From: Egicoccus halophilus
GTDB lineage: Bacteria; Actinomycetota; Nitriliruptoria; Nitriliruptorales; Nitriliruptoraceae
Direction: 5' to 3'
Length of the DNA stretch: 64,000 bases
Assembly (NCBI RefSeq): GCF_004300825.1
Contig: NZ_CP036250.1
Coordinates: 2,784,001-2,848,000, forward strand
Positions 1,826 to 9,406 of this stretch are shown piece after piece. Made by a program: the position numbers and the translations under genes. How positions within the stretch are numbered: the stretch's first letter is position 1; the number at the start of each line of letters is the position of its first letter. The notes beneath the pieces are model-generated. The model was not told the DNA's origin. It was given only the letters and a program-made list of their open reading frames with translations, and did not search any database.

Positions 1826-2419
1826 ACGAGCCCGAACATCACCGCGCGCGCGACGGTCCTCGGCCTCACCCGCCGCGGACGACCCATCTACGCCATCGCC
1901 GGTGGAGCCGGCGACGAGCCGCCACCCGAGCAGGGCGACGAGGAACAGGACGAGCCACCGGAGGGCTTCGTCCCGGCCGAAGAGTTGGAACGGACCCACG
2001 CACGGATGGTCGCGGCCGACAAGCGCGCCTCCGAACTCGCCGCCGCTGTCGAGGAACGCGACAGCGACCTCCGCAGCGCACAGGTCGAGCTAGCCGTCCG
2101 GCGCGAGGTCGCCGCTCGCCGAGACAGCCCCTTCGCGGACGTCGAGGTCGTACTCCCGCTGGTCCGGGACGCCATCGAGACCGACGAGGCCGGCGAGCCG
2201 GTCGGAGTGGCGGAGGCGATGGCCTCGCTGGCGGAGCGCCACCCCTACCTCCTCGCCGAGCACGCCGCTCCGGCGACCCGGACAGACCCCTCGAAGCACG
2301 CCCCATCCGGTGGTCCGGTCGGGAGCCGCATCCAGCAGCGTGCCGGCCCGACCTACGACACCAAGAAGCTCGAGACCAAGTACCCGATGCTCAGCTACGG
2401 GCGTCGGCGGCGCCCCTAG
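1826..2419 (+). CDS. Frame resembling an actinophage scaffold/capsid-associated protein, without a normal start
   Basis: The frame is open from just after the TAA at 1823-1825 to 2419. It reads about 197 residues: GLTRRGRPIYAIAGGAGDEP near the front, an acidic Pro/Glu-rich stretch, then a helical segment (about residues 55-105) and a basic tail (SYGRRRRP). The (R)GRPIYxIAGG opening is reminiscent of proteins that precede major capsid genes in actinobacteriophages; this is recall, not a search. No ATG or GTG exists at the proper front end: ATG at 1814 is cut off by TAA after three codons, and the first usable start is TTG at 1985. No capsid gene follows. Confidence 0.45.
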   Translation, partial: TSPNITARATVLGLTRRGRPIYAIAGGAGDEPPPEQGDEEQDEPPEGFVPAEELERTHARMVAADKRASELAAAVEERDSDLRSAQVELAVRREVAARRDSPFADVEVVLPLVRDAIETDEAGEPVGVAEAMASLAERHPYLLAEHAAPATRTDPSKHAPSGGPVGSRIQQRAGPTYDTKKLETKYPMLSYGRRRRP

Positions 2420-2949
2420 AAGCTCTCCTTGATGACCCTCTCGCAGTCATCAAGGCTTCCTCCGTACGGCTCAAGCCAGTCGGGAGGCGACACCGCGGGG
2501 AAGGTCAGCCACCGGGTGTCAGTTCCCTTACTACCGCCGTGCTGAGGCACTGCATGGTCAAAGGCCAACGCCTTCGGTGGGCACCACGCGTGGACGTCGT
2601 TGGGGCTGGCACCGAGGAGGAAGATGAACTCGTAGTCCTGGTCGCGAAGTTGCTGGAATACGTAAGTATTCTGCTTGTCCCACAGGGTGGAGAACTTGAT
2701 CTCCAACTTCCGCCCGTTGACAATCCGGTCATGACCGGAGTTCTGCGGCCTAGTTACGGCGAGTCCGACGGTCGTCAACCACTTCTCGACAAGGACCTCC
2801 CCGGCCTTCCCGCGTGTCCGCGAAGGCAGCGACATGATCCACTCGAAGGGAGAACCGACCCACTTCTCTGCGCCGGTTCGCGTAGCCATGATCTCGCGTT
2901 TCGCATCCTCGTTGGCGACAGCGAACGATTCCGGGAACCCGTGGCTCAC
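2416..2949 (-). CDS. Probable type II restriction endonuclease (PD-(D/E)xK)
   Basis: A 177-residue protein with GTG start preceded by TTGGAG. Around residues 47-85 it has GKAGEVLVEKWL followed by HDRIVNGRKLEIKFS. The spacing D74...E83-x-K85 with an upstream Glu51 fits the PD-(D/E)xK nuclease core. It lies 71 bases downstream of a DNA methyltransferase on the same strand, the standard arrangement of a restriction-modification pair. It would cut unmethylated invading DNA in the cytoplasm. The recognition sequence cannot be predicted. An alternative is a Holliday-junction- or Vsr-like nuclease, but the methylase partner makes restriction more likely. Confidence 0.65.
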   Translation of the reverse strand: MSHGFPESFAVANEDAKREIMATRTGAEKWVGSPFEWIMSLPSRTRGKAGEVLVEKWLTTVGLAVTRPQNSGHDRIVNGRKLEIKFSTLWDKQNTYVFQQLRDQDYEFIFLLGASPNDVHAWCPPKALAFDHAVPQHGGSKGTDTRWLTFPAVSPPDWLEPYGGSLDDCERVIKESF

Positions 2950-3020
2950 TAGTACTCCAAGGCCGACGTTACGTGGGCCGGGGAGTCAAGCGCAGCCTCG
3001 GTCGCCGTGTAGCGCTTCCG

Positions 3021-3926
3021 TCAGAAAAGGCTCACTTCGGCGTCTTCGACGGAGGAGGGCGTGGCATCGTCGCCGTTGATGTCGACGTAACTGATGCCGC
3101 GCGAGCCCAAGCGCTGCCCCATCACCTCGACTGCTTCGGAATTCGAGTCGACCATGACGAAGCGTCGGCCCAGCTCGCGAGCGACCGCGCCCGTTGTGCC
3201 GCTACCCGCGAAGAAGTCGAGAACGCGCCCATCAGCCGTCGTTGAAGCCTGGATGACCCGTCGCAGAATGCCCTCGGGCTTCTGATTCGGGTATCCGGTT
3301 TTCTCCGAGCCGTTCGTCGGCACGATGGTGTGCCACCAGACATCGGTCGGGAGCTTTCCTCTTGCTGCCTTCTCCTTGGAGACGAGTCCCGGCGCCATGT
3401 ATGGAATGCGCGAGATGGCTTCTTGGTCGAAGTAGTGATTCTTCGGGCTCTTCACGTATACGAGGATTGTGTCGTGCTTCGCCGGCCACCGGTCACGGGC
3501 TCGCCCGCCGTAGTCGTAGGCCCAGATGATTTCGTTCAGGAATGCATCTCGACCGAAGATGCTGTCGAGAAGAACCTTGCAGTAGTGCGCTTCCCGATAG
3601 TCAATGTGGAAGTAGAGAGTTCCATCCTGAGACAACAAGCGATGCGCTTCCTCAAGTCGAGGACCTATGAAGGACAAGTAGTCATCGTACGCATCCAGAT
3701 AGCCGCGCCGAGCCAACTCCGAGATGTCATACCGATTCCCACCAAAGCCCACGTGCTCGCCGGACTCCGACCGAGTTGCCTTCAGCGTGCGACGCTGCTG
3801 CGTCTTCCCCGTGTTGAACGGAGGGTCGATGTAGACCAGCTGGAACGAGGCGTCGGGCAACGCCGGAAGCACTTCGGCGTTGTCCGCATGGACGACGTAG
3901 TCCGTATCGTCCTTGAGGTTGAGCAC
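3021..3926 (-). CDS. Beta-class DNA methyltransferase (N6-adenine or N4-cytosine)
   Basis: A 301-residue methylase. The catalytic motif IV is DPPFNTG at residues 34-40. The S-adenosylmethionine motif I is VLDFFAGSGTT near residues 233-243, with the following RFVMVDSN. Catalytic motif before the cofactor motif is the beta-class order. I chose GTG at 3926 because GGAGGA lies about eight bases upstream; extending further would run into the tRNA gene. It is followed by a PD-(D/E)xK protein, so it probably protects host DNA from that enzyme. The pair sits next to tRNA-Met in a likely integrated element. Confidence 0.85.
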   Translation of the reverse strand: MLNLKDDTDYVVHADNAEVLPALPDASFQLVYIDPPFNTGKTQQRRTLKATRSESGEHVGFGGNRYDISELARRGYLDAYDDYLSFIGPRLEEAHRLLSQDGTLYFHIDYREAHYCKVLLDSIFGRDAFLNEIIWAYDYGGRARDRWPAKHDTILVYVKSPKNHYFDQEAISRIPYMAPGLVSKEKAARGKLPTDVWWHTIVPTNGSEKTGYPNQKPEGILRRVIQASTTADGRVLDFFAGSGTTGAVARELGRRFVMVDSNSEAVEVMGQRLGSRGISYVDINGDDATPSSVEDAEVSLF

Positions 3927-4051
3927 GAGAACTTCCTCCAGCAGCGGGGTAGCTGACGATTCGGGAGCAGGACGCGGCAGCGCGGCGACCCTACCCCGGG
4001 GGTTGACGCGGCTGCGAAGGAGCTGCCCGACAGCTGTGGACAAGGGCTGGG

Positions 4052-4125
4052 TGGGCCGGGCGGGGCTCGAACCCGCGGCCAAACGATTATGAGTCGCATG
4101 CTCTAACCAGCTGAGCTACCGGCCC
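4052..4125 (-). tRNA. tRNA-Met (anticodon CAT)
   Basis: A 74-nt tRNA. The acceptor stem GGGCCGG pairs perfectly with CCGGCCC and is followed by discriminator A. The D arm GCTCAGCTGGTTAGAGC, anticodon loop CTCATAA and T arm with GGTTCGAGCCC are all present; no CCA is encoded. CAT with GCGAC/ATCGT flanks fits elongator tRNA-Met, although a lysidine-modified tRNA-Ile cannot be fully excluded by eye. Its 3' end faces the restriction-modification genes and phage-like block, so it is a plausible integration site for that element. Confidence 0.93.
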
Positions 4126-4399: not shown

Positions 4400-5059
4400 T
4401 CAGGGCTGGGGCACCTCACCGAACGGGCTGGTCATCGCGGTCAGACTCGCTTCCGCACGCGCCGAGGCGGGCGCCCCGTCGACGAACACCGCGACCCGGT
4501 ACTCGTCGGTCGTGCCCGAGGCCTGCGGCACGGCCCAGGTGACCGGCAGGGACACGCTGCTGACACCGCTCGCCCCCGCCTGACCGGTCAGGACCGACCA
4601 GGACGAGGGTCCCTGCGCCTCGTCGCGGGCCCGGAACACGAACGCCTCGACCTCACACGGACACGCGGTGGCCTGCTCGGCGTGCACCGTCAGCGATCCC
4701 TGCAGCACCACGTACCCGGTGCCCCCGCGGTCCCCCGTCGCCTCGACGGTGACGGTGACCGGCACCCCGCTGCCGTCGGCGAGCGTGGTGGTGCTGTGAT
4801 CGGCGCTCACGCGGGGCAGGCCGCGGGTCAGGAATGCCGCCATCTGCCCGCGGTTGACCGCGTTGCCGGCACAGAAGCGCGGCGGGTCGGTCGCGCACCC
4901 GGCGGTGATGCCCGAGCCGGCCAGCTCGGAGATCGCGTCGTGATGGGTGCTGCTCGAGGGCACGTCGCTGAAGACGTGGTGAGCCGCGGCCGGCACGGCG
5001 ATGGCCAGGGAGGCCAGGCACAGCACCAGCAACAGGGTGCGGCGGCGGGGGGTCGGCAT
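4400..5059 (-). CDS. Secreted protein with one SLH-like repeat
   Basis: A 219-residue exported protein. Residues 1-26 are a signal peptide (basic start, hydrophobic core, AAA cleavage region). Residues 30-80 read FSDVPSSSTHHDAISELAGSGITAGC ... NRGQMAAFLTRGL in two pieces, the pattern of the cell-wall-associated repeats common in this kind of actinobacterium. A beta-rich C-terminal part of about 130 residues with a CPC motif has no family I know. It starts 73 bases after the methylamine-dehydrogenase-like gene on the same strand and may be the last gene of that operon. AAAGG precedes the ATG. Confidence 0.75.
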   Translation of the reverse strand: MPTPRRRTLLLVLCLASLAIAVPAAAHHVFSDVPSSSTHHDAISELAGSGITAGCATDPPRFCAGNAVNRGQMAAFLTRGLPRVSADHSTTTLADGSGVPVTVTVEATGDRGGTGYVVLQGSLTVHAEQATACPCEVEAFVFRARDEAQGPSSWSVLTGQAGASGVSSVSLPVTWAVPQASGTTDEYRVAVFVDGAPASARAEASLTAMTSPFGEVPQP

Positions 5060-5132: not shown

Positions 5133-6800
5133 TCAGGGCAGGTCGCTGGGGCGTCGGGGCGACCGCGGCGCGGTGCCGTCCGGTCCGGTGCCCGAGACGG
5201 CGGCCGGGCGGCGTGCGGGGCGTCGTTCGAGGATCTGCGCGCGGCCGTCGGAACCGACGACGATCGCGCCACCCTCGAACGACGCACGCCGTCGGCCGCC
5301 CGGGACGGCCACGACGTCGCTGGTCGGCAGACCGAGCCGGCCGTCGGGACCGCCGGCGTCGTCGTAGGCGGCGAGCACCGGGCCGGACAGGTGGCGGACC
5401 CCCGTCCCCTCGCCGGTGAACAGCGCTCCCTCGACGAGGTCGAGCCGGCGGCCGCGTCCACCGGCGACACTGCTCGCGGAGCGCAGCGGCCGCCCCCAGG
5501 AACCACCGGGGCCGCCAGCCTCGAGGTAGCGCACCGCCAGGTCGTCGCCGATCGGGAACAGCGTCCCGCCCCGGGTCTGGGTGACGATGCCGCGCTCGAA
5601 GCGCTGCAGACGGGCGGTGCCGGAGGTGGTCTCCTCGGCGACCGGCAGTCCGACCGCGTCCGGCCCGCTCGGCCAGCGACGGGTCGCCTCCACCACGTCA
5701 CGGCGCAGCTCGACCATGGGTCCGCCGGCGGCCTGCGCCAGCGTGCTGTGCTGGAACGAGACGATCACGCCGCCGCCGGTGCGGGTCGTGCCCATCGGGT
5801 AGCCCAGGCGCCCGCGGGGGCCGCCGAGCGCGCGGAAGCGTTCGTCGAAGGCGCCGACGACCGGTTGCGGGGTCGCCGAGCGCGAACGCAGGTAGATGGT
5901 TCCGCCCTGGTAGCGCACGGAGGTGCCGGCGCCGTCACCGACGGCGGTCACCTCGGTGGTGGGATAGCCCAGCGGCGAGGTGTCCCCGCCGAGCTCGCGG
6001 TGGACGGCGTCGATCGAGCCGTACACCGCCAGTGCACCCGTGGCCTGGCGGTAGTGGATCGAACCGTTGTCGTAGCGGCGGTAGCGCCCGCCCGCGGCTC
6101 CGCCCCGTTCCGGCGTGGTGGGACGCCCGAGGATCGAGCCGGACAGACCCAGGTCCTGGTACCTGAGGTCGATGAAGGTGGCGTCGCGTTGCGGCAGACA
6201 GGTCGAGTTGTGACTGCGGGTGCGGTTGTCCACCCGCACCGTGCGGTTGCAGGACGCGTCCCACTCCCACGGCGCGATGCAGGTCACGACCCGGCAGACG
6301 ACCTCGGTCACCCCGGCGACCTGCGTGTTGCACTGGCCGTAGCGGAAGTTGTTGCAGCAGACCCGCCGCTGGTCACAGGGATCATCGGCGCAGCGGCAGT
6401 TGCAGGACGCCGAGGGGCTGCGGTTGCAGTCGATGACGTAGCGGGCACGTCCCATGCAGAACGGCGAGTCGTCGATGCGCCACCACCCGGCGGCGTACGA
6501 CCCCGGCGGGCAGGTGTTGGCCCCGTCGTTGACGCTGCAGCAGAACGCGGTCCACCCGCTCGAGCAGGACGCCCCGGTCCCGCAGACCTGCGCGTACGCC
6601 GTCCCTGGCCGCAGCGTGTAGCGGATCGGGTCGATCGCCATCGCCGAGCCGACGACGGCGACCCGCCCCAGGAACCGGCGGCGCGACAGGCCGCGACCGG
6701 CCAGCGCCCGACCCACCCGGTCGACGAGCCGGACGCTCAGCGGGGTGTCGGTGCCGGCAGCGCGCGTCTCGACCGGGCCGGTCGTGGAGGTGGCCGTCAT
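5133..6800 (-). CDS. Tat-secreted methylamine dehydrogenase light-chain-like protein fused to LGFP repeats
   Basis: A 555-residue protein with GGAGGA before the ATG, which overlaps the upstream stop (ATGA). Residues 39-56 hold a twin-arginine motif (SRRRFLG) and hydrophobic core. Residues 72-201 contain 18 cysteines. NTCPPG, AAGWW and FCMGRARYVIDC align by eye with the disulfide-rich light chain of methylamine dehydrogenase (TNCPPG, TASW, then a Cys-rich segment). Trp106 or Trp107 matches one tryptophan of the TTQ cofactor. The position of the second is Val168 before Cys169, with Trp178 and Trp180 nearby. From about 225 to 520 there are several LGFP-type repeats (LGYP, LGLP), usually cell-wall-binding. 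MauE- and MauD-like genes upstream support a disulfide-maturation need. Enzyme activity is unproven. Confidence 0.7.
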   Translation of the reverse strand: MTATSTTGPVETRAAGTDTPLSVRLVDRVGRALAGRGLSRRRFLGRVAVVGSAMAIDPIRYTLRPGTAYAQVCGTGASCSSGWTAFCCSVNDGANTCPPGSYAAGWWRIDDSPFCMGRARYVIDCNRSPSASCNCRCADDPCDQRRVCCNNFRYGQCNTQVAGVTEVVCRVVTCIAPWEWDASCNRTVRVDNRTRSHNSTCLPQRDATFIDLRYQDLGLSGSILGRPTTPERGGAAGGRYRRYDNGSIHYRQATGALAVYGSIDAVHRELGGDTSPLGYPTTEVTAVGDGAGTSVRYQGGTIYLRSRSATPQPVVGAFDERFRALGGPRGRLGYPMGTTRTGGGVIVSFQHSTLAQAAGGPMVELRRDVVEATRRWPSGPDAVGLPVAEETTSGTARLQRFERGIVTQTRGGTLFPIGDDLAVRYLEAGGPGGSWGRPLRSASSVAGGRGRRLDLVEGALFTGEGTGVRHLSGPVLAAYDDAGGPDGRLGLPTSDVVAVPGGRRRASFEGGAIVVGSDGRAQILERRPARRPAAVSGTGPDGTAPRSPRRPSDLP

Positions 6801-7315
6801 GGTCGTTCCTCCCCCGGCTGCGCCGGGTCGATGGAGATCTGCGCGAGGACCGCCTCGACGCGGCGCACCTGCCGGTTGACGTCCCCGTGGTCGCCGAGGA
6901 CGACGTAGAGGCAGAACGCCCGACCGGCTTCGGTGAAGAAGTGCTGCCAGCCGGCCTGGTTGCGCATCGAACGCTGCAGCGAACGGGTGCTGAACGTGCG
7001 CGGGTCGAGTCGCCGCGGCAGTCCCTGGGCAGCGAACAACGGCGTGTCCGCCTCCTCGGTGCCGTACTCCAGCAGTGCCACGAACGCGTCGTCGTCGGCC
7101 ATCAGGTCGACGGCGCCGGAGCCGAAGTCGCCCCGTTCGTTGGGCAGGGCGAAAGTCGCGAGGTGGACGACGGGTGGCCCCTTCGCGGCCGCCGCGGCCG
7201 CCGCGGCCGCCGCGAAGGGTCCCACCTCGCCGTCGACGTGCATCGGCTCGCGACGGATCGCGCCCTCCCACCCCCGGGGCAGCTCCGCCCGGATCCCGTG
7301 ACCTCGCAGTTGCAT
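6797..7315 (-). CDS. Hypothetical protein with a ten-alanine run, mau-like operon
   Basis: A 172-residue soluble protein starting at ATG with GGAGGA upstream. A polyalanine run at about residues 35-44 is encoded by three near-identical GCGGCCGCC units. The rest is mixed alpha/beta with no motif I recognise (central ...FSTRSLQRSMRNQAGW..., end EVNRQVRRVEAVL-like helix). Its stop overlaps the start of the light-chain-like gene (ATGA), so the two are translated together. It may be a cytoplasmic partner or chaperone for that exported protein; this is inferred from position only. Confidence 0.65.
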   Translation of the reverse strand: MQLRGHGIRAELPRGWEGAIRREPMHVDGEVGPFAAAAAAAAAAKGPPVVHLATFALPNERGDFGSGAVDLMADDDAFVALLEYGTEEADTPLFAAQGLPRRLDPRTFSTRSLQRSMRNQAGWQHFFTEAGRAFCLYVVLGDHGDVNRQVRRVEAVLAQISIDPAQPGEERP

Positions 7316-7326
7316 GTCGTCCTCCT

Positions 7327-7941
7327 TCAGACGGCTGCGCCGACGAACAGCGCGGCCGCGACCGCGGCGACGGTGACCTCGGTGATCCGCTGGGCCAACG
7401 AGCTGCGCCGGTCGAGCGCACGGTGGTAGCGCTGCAGGCCGGCCGGGTCCCGCAGCCGCGCGGTGGTCAGCAACGGCAGGGCACGCACGAGGCCGAAGCT
7501 CGCCCCGAGCAACGCACCGGTCGCGGTCGAGCCCGAAGCCAGCGCGAGCAGCAGCAACAGGTGCGTCGCAGCGGTCGGGATGCGGGTGAAGACGGCGCCG
7601 CCGAGCTGGGCCCCGAAGCCGGCGCCGTACACCCAGCCACGGAAGTCGTCCAGCCACCGCTCGTCGACCTGCCGCTGCCAGCTGGGAAGCCGGCCGGGCA
7701 TCCGGCCGGCGTCGACCAGCAGGGCGCCCACCGCGGCCAGTCCGAGCAGCACGAGCCCGAGCGGACGCGGCAGCTCCCAGCCGGCGGCGGCGCCCAGCCA
7801 GGCCGCCAGCCGGCCGACCGCACCTGCCAGCCCGAAGACCACCGCCCCACCGATGATCGACGCGACGAGGTAGGCGGCGGCCGTCACCGACCACCGCTGT
7901 CCTCGTGAGGCCTCCCCGACCGGGGAGATGCTGGAGAGCAT
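7327..7941 (-). CDS. Polytopic membrane protein of the mau-like operon
   Basis: About 204 residues with five or six hydrophobic spans. A conserved-looking loop reads DDFRGWVYGAGFGAQLGGAV followed by FTRIPTAATHLL. Two starts are possible: ATG at 7947, which touches TGAGGG, and ATG at 7941, which has the same TGAGGG six bases upstream; I prefer 7941. No cysteine pair typical of CcdA/DsbD is visible, so redox transport is not shown. Its place between the MauD-like gene and the secreted cysteine-rich protein suggests a membrane role in making or exporting that protein. Confidence 0.65.
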   Translation of the reverse strand: MLSSISPVGEASRGQRWSVTAAAYLVASIIGGAVVFGLAGAVGRLAAWLGAAAGWELPRPLGLVLLGLAAVGALLVDAGRMPGRLPSWQRQVDERWLDDFRGWVYGAGFGAQLGGAVFTRIPTAATHLLLLLALASGSTATGALLGASFGLVRALPLLTTARLRDPAGLQRYHRALDRRSSLAQRITEVTVAAVAAALFVGAAV

Positions 7942-7950
7942 CGACATCCC

Positions 7951-8016
7951 TCAGGGAGACCAGGAGCTGCGCAGTGCCGCCACCGTCGCGAGGGTCAGGC
8001 CGAGTGCCGGGATCAC
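7951..8016 (-). CDS. 21-residue hydrophobic peptide overlapping the MauD-like stop
   Basis: A GTG overlaps the MauD-like stop (GTGA). It reads VIPALGLTLATVAALRSSW then SP: a short hydrophobic helix with a basic end. The stop lies 9 bases before the next preferred start. The exact four-base overlap and position inside a coupled operon argue for translation, perhaps to carry ribosomes to the next gene. The peptide could also be a functional membrane micro-protein. Length alone gives no proof. Confidence 0.4.
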   Translation of the reverse strand: MIPALGLTLATVAALRSSWSP

Positions 8017-8798
8017 GGTCGCGTCCCGGTGTCGTCGCCTGCCGCGGGCGCGCCCGCGCCGCCGACGGTGACCTCGTCGCCCGGCGCGAACTGCTCGGCC
8101 CGGCGGTACAGACTCGGGTCGCCGGGCTCGATGCCCGCGGCGAGCAGGTGCCGGTCGGCGTCGCGCTCGCGACGGGCGTCGGCCGCGGCCTTGTCGCGCC
8201 CCGCCGCACCCTGCAGCAGCAGGCGGCGCACGGCCGGCCAGGTCCCGGCCGTGCCCTCGCCCCGGACCCGGCCCGTGGCGCCGTCGACGTGGACCACGTA
8301 CGGACTGCCCGGCACGTCGTGGGCGTCCCAGGTCGCGTCGCTCATGACCACGGTCGCGCCGGGCGGCGCCAGACGGGCGATCGCGTCGCGGTCCTCGTCG
8401 GGCTCCTCCCGGGTGACGACCACCACCCGGGTGTCGCCCGGGACGTCGGGCGCCTCGAGCGCGGGCCAGTACGGCTTGCAGCCGGCGCAGGTCGACGACA
8501 GGAACACCAGGACCGTGTCGTGGCGCACCTCGCGCACGCGCAACGCGAGCACCTCGCCGTCGGGACCGACGCCGACGACGTCGTCGGCGAGCCGGCCGTC
8601 GACCGGCGTGGCCGGCGCCGCGACGGCCGCCGTCGGCGCCCCGGACGACGCGGGCGCGCCGGCGGGCTGGTCCGGGTCGATGCCCGCACCGAGCTCGTGC
8701 AGCCGCCGCAGGATCTCGGCGTGACTGCGTAGCAGTCCGACGACCAGCACGGTCTGCACGGCGACGACGACGGCGAGGAGTACGACCACGACCATCAT
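8013..8798 (-). CDS. MauD-like membrane-anchored thioredoxin-fold protein
   Basis: A 261-residue protein. Residues 2-22 form an N-terminal membrane anchor, residues 40-68 an Ala/Pro-rich linker, and the thioredoxin-like domain follows. The active site is C104-A-G-C107 in LSSTCAGCKPYW. DVPGSPYVV supplies the cis-proline region. In methylamine-utilisation clusters MauD is thought to guide disulfide formation in the cysteine-rich light chain, together with MauE. Here it overlaps the MauE-like stop by four bases and lies upstream of an 18-cysteine secreted protein, so the same role is likely. A TlpA/ResA-type redox protein is the alternative. Confidence 0.75.
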   Translation of the reverse strand: MMVVVVLLAVVVAVQTVLVVGLLRSHAEILRRLHELGAGIDPDQPAGAPASSGAPTAAVAAPATPVDGRLADDVVGVGPDGEVLALRVREVRHDTVLVFLSSTCAGCKPYWPALEAPDVPGDTRVVVVTREEPDEDRDAIARLAPPGATVVMSDATWDAHDVPGSPYVVHVDGATGRVRGEGTAGTWPAVRRLLLQGAAGRDKAAADARRERDADRHLLAAGIEPGDPSLYRRAEQFAPGDEVTVGGAGAPAAGDDTGTRP

Positions 8799-9406
8799 GC
8801 GCGACCTCCGGCGCCCGGGTCGGACGGCGCCACCCGCGGCGCGGGCAACGTGATGCGGCGGGTGGCGGCCCGCAGGTCCGGCAAGGCGCCCAGCAGTTGC
8901 TGGAGCGAGGCGACGGCCACCAACGCCAGGACGGCGGCGACCAGGGTCGGGAGCGCGGCGAGGCCCAACCCGGCGGCCGGCGACCCGAGCAACGCCAGGT
9001 TGGGCGCCAGGGCAGCCACGGCGGCCGCGACGGTCACCACCGCGTCGATCGTGACGTGCAGCGGCCCGGCGGGCGCGGCGGCCTGCCCGAAGCAGCCACA
9101 CGAAGCACCACGGCGCCACTGCCGCGCGGCGACGAGCGTGAAGGCGCCGTAGGCGAGGGCCAGGCCGACCAGCGGCAGGCGTCCGCCGACGACCAGCACC
9201 AGCACCGCCAGCCCGAGCTCGCCGGCACCGATCGTGCGCACCAGCAACCGGGCGCGGGCGCCGCGCCAGCCGAGCGCGTCACCGGCGTCCTGGGGACGCC
9301 GCAGCTTGGCCAGTCCCGCGGGCAGCAGCAGACCGGCGCCGAGCACGACGGCGACCAACAGCAACTCGGCCGCCAGCGGCGACCACGCCTCGAGTACCGC
9401 GTACAT
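8795..9406 (-). CDS. MauE/DoxX-like redox-associated membrane protein
   Basis: A 203-residue membrane protein and first gene of the minus-strand operon. It has four to six hydrophobic spans. The motif GASCGCFGQ near residues 96-104 matches the CGCFG seen in MauE-type proteins, whose paired cysteines pass reducing or oxidising equivalents across the membrane. AKLRRP after the first long span is also typical of the family. GGAGGG precedes the start. The neighbouring MauD-like protein overlaps by four bases. The most likely substrate is the secreted cysteine-rich protein three genes downstream. Confidence 0.8.
   Translation of the reverse strand: MYAVLEAWSPLAAELLLVAVVLGAGLLLPAGLAKLRRPQDAGDALGWRGARARLLVRTIGAGELGLAVLVLVVGGRLPLVGLALAYGAFTLVAARQWRRGASCGCFGQAAAPAGPLHVTIDAVVTVAAAVAALAPNLALLGSPAAGLGLAALPTLVAAVLALVAVASLQQLLGALPDLRAATRRITLPAPRVAPSDPGAGGRA

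Follow-up and report, generated by a model that had tools for sequence, protein, structure and literature searches.

The minus strand of Egicoccus halophilus carries, within the window analysed here (64,000 nucleotides, positions 2,784,001-2,848,000 of a genome that is a single contig of 3.98 Mb), an operon of five genes in which homologues of the methylamine dehydrogenase maturation proteins MauE, MauD and MauF are combined with an orphan gene, p172, and with a gene for a large cysteine-rich protein, hereafter the substrate (Table 1). The genes follow each other in the order mauE-like, mauD-like, mauF-like, p172 and substrate; the first two overlap by 4 bp (8795-8798), as do the last two (6797-6800), and a gap of 11 bp separates the mauF-like gene from p172. 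An earlier note on this DNA had proposed a coupled operon at 5133-9406, and the five minus-strand genes with their two 4-bp overlaps bear this out, even though the third of them, the MauF homologue, had been overlooked in that first reading.

Table 1. Features of the Egicoccus halophilus locus (window coordinates)
Feature	Position	Strand	Description	Evidence
Five-gene operon	9406-5133	minus	mauE-like to substrate
mauE-like gene	8795..9406	minus	203 aa, membrane protein, CGCFG motif	PF07291 1.9e-11
mauD-like gene	8013..8798	minus	261 aa, N-terminal membrane anchor and thioredoxin-like domain, CAGC	hhalign
mauF-like gene	7327..7947	minus	206 aa, DsbD/CcdA-type membrane protein	hhalign to MauF; DsbD_2 in relatives
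p172	6797..7315	minus	172 aa, orphan soluble protein, no evident signal peptide	no family match; co-occurrence
Substrate gene	5133..6800	minus	555 aa: Tat signal, 18-Cys domain, LGFP repeats
Signal region	6603..6800	minus	residues 1-66 (SRRRFLG...AYA)	TIGR01409 residues 38-56; family alignment
Cys-rich core domain	6189..6602	minus	residues 67-204	109- and 147-member alignments; AF2; paired Cys loss
LGFP-repeat region	5136..6131	minus	five repeats from residue 224 on, putative wall-binding tail	PF08310
Downstream secreted protein	4400-5059	minus	one weak SLH-like motif	PF00395 0.022, below cut-off

MauF, MauE and MauD are best known as maturation proteins of bacterial methylamine-oxidising enzymes, and in Paracoccus denitrificans they are encoded in the mau operon, mauFBEDACJG. 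Judged by profile comparison, all three membrane or redox partners encoded here are homologues of these proteins (hhalign 97.8-98.4%). The mauE-like product, which has the CGC motif, scores 44.8 bits against PF07291 (cut-off 27), and its family aligns with known MauE at 98.0% (1.9e-13). The mauD-like product reaches only 22 bits with TIGR02661, far under the cut-off of 188.6, but an alignment of its family profile to six sequences of known MauD proteins reaches 98.4% (E 8.8e-15), and its CxxC is conserved across the family; because the equivalog cut-off is not reached, we regard it as a MauD homologue, yet not as an equivalog. The MauE-like and MauD-like genes named in the earlier note were thus correctly assigned. 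The alignment of the mauF-like protein to MauF (97.8%, E 6.8e-13) spans 161 columns and covers the membrane core, and 21 of its 28 relatives match PF13386 (DsbD_2). No cysteine is conserved among these 28 relatives, so that the redox-active membrane cysteines expected of a DsbD/CcdA thiol-electron carrier are missing. Two further observations concern the same families: a second MauE-family protein is encoded elsewhere in the genome (G000:C1:420843-421073, 28.2 bits, above the Pfam cut-off), and at five loci from actinobacterial metagenome-assembled genomes (L146-L149, L161) mauE is adjoined by a further mauD-like match, a partial one, separate from the main mauD.

The substrate is built from three parts. 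Its signal region is well conserved across the substrate family and contains a twin-arginine (Tat) signal (TIGR01409, 20.9 bits against a cut-off of 16.7), so that the Tat export proposed earlier is also what we would predict. Eighteen cysteines, a count that agrees with the one first given, lie between residues 73 and 201, in a domain that has no Pfam family match and no clear match in the PDB. Twelve cysteines are invariant in 147 sequences of this Cys-rich domain, together with GWW, RY, D, FRYG and R104; its DC motif is invariant as well, and an H residue is likewise listed among the invariant positions. The third part is the repeat region, in which a PF08310 search finds five stretches (2e-33, 114.9 bits, above cut-off), in line with the several LGFP repeats initially reported, and which matches corynebacterial PS1 (6swz) with a phmmer E-value of 4.2e-18. 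PS1 shares the LGFP repeats and differs in its mycolyltransferase domain, which is missing here. Across the family the tails may be LGFP, FG-GAP_3, B_lectin, ricin-type lectin (RicinB) or unassigned repeats, or there may be none. Since the tails vary in this way, LGFP appears to be a lineage-specific choice and no defining feature, and the fusion to LGFP that had been singled out, while present here, is only one among several swapped tails.

The cysteines of the domain also vary in pairs. In the 147 sequences co-variation holds in 147/147 for C13-C71, 146/147 for C67-C82 and 144/147 for C22-C135 (domain numbering; 66 is added for protein numbering), and the pair C63-C97 varies together in other family members. 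Paired variation of this kind is a mark of disulfides, although the counts do not represent independent events, because shared ancestry inflates them. The pattern suggests that the cysteines form disulfides, of which 18 cysteines would allow up to nine.

The substrate gene was located at 112 loci, 15 of which are repeat fetches of the same contigs, leaving about 97 distinct actinobacterial loci. It is accompanied by p172 in 107 of the 112, by mauD in 101, by mauE in 92 and by the mauF-like gene in 88, in shuffled gene orders. Many of the absences coincide with contig ends, but several complete loci from Acidimicrobiia and Aquihabitans likewise have no mauF-like gene next to the cassette. Relatives are encoded in at least 233 stretches of genome contigs; the 80 of these that were listed all have titles placing them in the Actinomycetota. 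Within a single class, 85 of 395 sampled genomes have the module. Clustering of 4151 neighbouring open reading frames (ORFs) revealed no other neighbour recurring at more than 17 loci, and a plasmid search with the substrate returned no match. The cassette need not lie beside every copy of the domain: in the Acidimicrobiales metagenome-assembled genome YX2bin23 one locus (L096) has the full cassette and another (L097) has a second Cys-rich copy with a ricin-type lectin tail and no cassette, and it is possible that the former serves the L097 protein in trans.

The tightest association is that with p172. Of 396 genomes, 30 have p172, the very same 30 have the Cys-rich domain, and neither occurs alone in any; this count sets aside four weak matches, one of them read as alcohol-dehydrogenase-like (G086) and three (G072, G223, G304) excluded solely on their scores (E 2e-4 to 9e-4) and stop codons, and the Fisher test of the pairing counts genomes as independent. 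On this co-occurrence p172 is an obligate partner gene of the Cys-rich protein. It has no relatives in Pfam, NCBIfam or the PDB, and the idea that it might be a MauJ homologue was discarded after a negative profile comparison with MauJ. Distant matches in G086 and G344 (L037, L039) were dropped as family members, being alcohol-dehydrogenase-like. The same data bear on whether MauF, MauE and MauD could simply be the general Dsb system of the cell, lying beside the Cys-rich gene by chance. The second MauE locus in this genome and the MauF-like proteins found elsewhere would fit such a view, but the genes are kept together in many lineages, in shuffled orders, and the pairing with p172 is one-to-one, which makes it improbable.

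Cassette conservation, the pairing with p172, homology to MauF, MauE and MauD, paired cysteines and modular tails together lead us to favour, with a probability of roughly 0.62, the explanation that the operon is a line dedicated to the oxidative folding and export of a single protein, one that is disulfide-knotted and attached to the cell surface. The mau maturation set would here be repurposed, uncoupled from any amine dehydrogenase, and would serve a distinct and apparently undescribed family of surface proteins. The reduced precursor would be handled in the cytosol by p172, acting as a substrate-specific chaperone or Tat proofreading factor, and would then be exported through Tat. Outside the membrane, the anchored, thioredoxin-like MauD would make or reshuffle the disulfides, while MauE and the cysteine-less MauF-like protein might relay redox equivalents or hold the complex together. 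The tail would finally anchor the matured domain to the wall; in this species it consists of LGFP repeats, and other members have lectin, FG-GAP-like or different repeats in its place, or no tail.

Three points weigh against this explanation. First, a direct role of MauE, MauD and MauF in disulfide formation is itself a proposal for the mau system, and one study (PMC7794033) describes it as speculation. Second, weaker homologues of the mauF-like protein occur in genomes that lack the Cys-rich domain, so that this family is wider than the module. Third, the invariance of so many residues other than cysteine (W, W, R, Y, D, F, R, Y, G, R) suggests that the domain has a specific binding or catalytic site, in which case "structural surface protein" could be an understatement. 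It is tempting to go further and see in these proteins a distinct exported class whose disulfide-knotted fold would be new and whose WW, RY, D, FRYG, R and H residues would make up a conserved site for catalysis or binding. Their maturation would fall to a repurposed MauF-MauE-MauD pathway with p172 as its dedicated partner in the cytosol, and the class, distributed throughout the Actinomycetota, would be fitted with interchangeable surface-binding tails; we put this forward tentatively, at somewhat below an even chance.

The invariant residues may also be read as part of a redox enzyme with a protein-derived cofactor other than tryptophan tryptophylquinone (TTQ), formed for instance by the invariant W106/W107 with Y154 or a cysteine. 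The conserved WW, Y, D, R and H residues and the MauF/E/D context are consistent with this, and p172, having no known relative, could be a modifying factor. Among the 4151 ORFs neighbouring the cassette, however, no gene for a haem, flavin or radical-SAM protein is found repeatedly, and there is neither a MauG homologue nor a conserved second tryptophan, so that we consider such an enzyme unlikely.

The absence of a conserved second tryptophan bears directly on the most specific claim of the earlier note, which saw in the Cys-rich domain a likeness to the TTQ-bearing light chain of methylamine dehydrogenase (MauA) and in the whole a possible amine-oxidising enzyme. In MauA two tryptophans, W57 and W108, form TTQ. 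The Cys-rich domain has an invariant WW pair in all 147 sequences, but after the DC motif no tryptophan is conserved: W112 is W in 127/147 and Y, C or S otherwise, and six members have none there at all. If the two proteins are matched by the spacing of their cysteines, C-11-C in each case, Q, N or R stands at the W108 position, though the global profile alignment places W108 elsewhere; the lack of a conserved second TTQ tryptophan is independent of this mapping. The heavy chain, MauB (PF06433), was found in none of six genomes of the family, including this one, under conditions in which the Paracoccus control was detected, and MauG (PF03150) is absent from this genome, its positive controls being likewise detected; the earlier remark that the window has no heavy chain or MauG therefore extends to the whole genome. 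A TTQ-bearing amine dehydrogenase light chain, with its heavy chain encoded elsewhere, is thus strongly disfavoured and extremely improbable: the resemblance of the operons is all that speaks for it, and the enzyme was rejected for want of MauB, MauG and a conserved second tryptophan.

The relation of the domain itself to MauA is less clear-cut. Relatives of the Cys-rich domain were gathered from whole genomes and named contigs into alignments of 35 rows (A1) and 109 rows (A4). PF02975, the light-chain family, matches neither the window protein nor any of the 35 members and has no match above cut-off in the 396 genomes, where weak matches fall below the cut-off and elsewhere than the domain; MauA of P. 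denitrificans, as positive control, scored 2e-53. When the family profiles were run against the PDB with hmmsearch, they retrieved no light chain and nothing relevant. A first AlphaFold model from 35 sequences (pLDDT 66) had light chains of aromatic amine dehydrogenase (AADH) as its best PDB neighbours (E 0.8, TM 0.31), but the confident model from 109 sequences (pLDDT 91.8, pTM 0.87) failed to repeat them: no light chain figures among its listed Foldseek matches in the PDB (best 50 of 75). The neighbours of the first model were set aside for this reason. A BFVD search gave no match. As far as Foldseek shows, then, residues 72-201 have no structural likeness to the light chain, the very outcome that the earlier note had named as refuting its reading. 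We are dealing with a Cys-rich family that lacks the enzyme's cofactor and partner subunit, and probably its fold as well. Of the original interpretation the maturation operon and the wall-type, disulfide-rich protein stand, along with the Tat signal, the 18 cysteines and the LGFP repeats, and they gain strength from the MauF homologue, the conserved cassette and the paired cysteine loss; the light-chain identity and the amine-oxidising enzyme are not supported.

Common descent with MauA is weakened by these results, but is still compatible with them, because Foldseek performs weakly on small disulfide-rich folds. Both proteins have a Tat signal, dense cysteines and a core resembling CPPG..W..C..Y.I.DC. 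The core CPPG..WW..C..Y.I.DC aligns to MauA with an hhalign P of 0.0015-0.0029, and its score of 25.0 exceeds that of 200/200 column shuffles (maximum 22.1); over the whole domain the profile alignment attains a Z of just 2.7, with 6/300 shuffles equally good. The domain further differs from MauA in its 18 cysteines, against 12. The bonds of MauA, which we take to include C29-C61 and C38-C86, map onto the Cys-rich domain with some uncertainty; paired cysteine loss is at odds with at least these two, and implies other bonds here, only if both the spacing-based mapping and the assumed connectivity hold. That the domain is a very divergent MauA relative, which lost TTQ and kept the folding machinery, is therefore a reading that we place only just below an even chance. 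It draws further support from the shared Tat and MauF/E/D context, from the AADH light chains that headed the list for the low-confidence model and from light-chain-like proteins of Thermomicrobium with an intermediate-looking GGAWWACY. It is compatible with the dedicated folding and export line favoured above, from which it differs on ancestry and fold. The Thermomicrobium roseum proteins deserve mention in themselves: on plasmid NC_011961.1 (~484000-493000; L225/L079) several light-chain-like stretches, some of them unannotated, lie in a row beside hypothetical proteins, and one copy is PF02975-positive (9e-9), with an AWW motif and the second tryptophan kept.

Like the mau operon of P. denitrificans, the cassette combines homologues of MauF, MauE and MauD with a Cys-rich protein that is Tat-exported and occupies the position of mauA. 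It differs in that no MauB, MauG, amicyanin or MauJ homologue was found beside it, and in a substrate that falls outside PF02975, lacks the TTQ tryptophan pair, is joined by the additional p172 and ends in variable surface-binding tails. Earlier work treats MauF, MauE and MauD as helpers of a single quinone enzyme, in which their exact part is not yet settled. With a different substrate and no quinone partner in sight, the cassette could allow their role in disulfide formation to be studied without TTQ chemistry.

A close parallel is found in the decRiPPter study of Streptomyces (PMC7794033), which describes predicted Cys-rich precursors with homologues of MauE and MauD next to them and proposes a role for these proteins outside methylamine metabolism. 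Those candidate RiPP (ribosomally synthesized and post-translationally modified peptide) clusters resemble the present cassette in having MauE, and in one family MauD, adjoining a Cys-rich product with other mau genes absent. As described there, they are set apart by a short predicted precursor with at least eight cysteines, as opposed to a large Tat-exported multidomain protein accompanied by MauF and p172, and neither MauF nor a Tat-exported multidomain product is mentioned in the passages describing them. No description of the cassette was found in the literature searched, which left most subscription journals outside its coverage, the relevant items being the decRiPPter study and a paper on a Methylacidiphilum genome. 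The cassette is a genuine, broadly distributed form of the mau maturation machinery that serves a new family of substrates and has apparently not been described before, and both p172 and the Cys-rich domain are outside Pfam although the module is widespread.

The operon is followed by the downstream secreted protein of Table 1, homologues of which also follow the cassette in genomes of the same family (Nitriliruptoraceae). SLH-type genes lie near the cassette at some other loci as well (L066, L157, L160). Further along the minus strand, an ORF at 3021-4082 resembles, by eye, an adenine-type DNA methyltransferase, and its neighbour at 2416-2949 a nuclease-type protein; the two (2416-4082) are possibly a restriction-modification pair.

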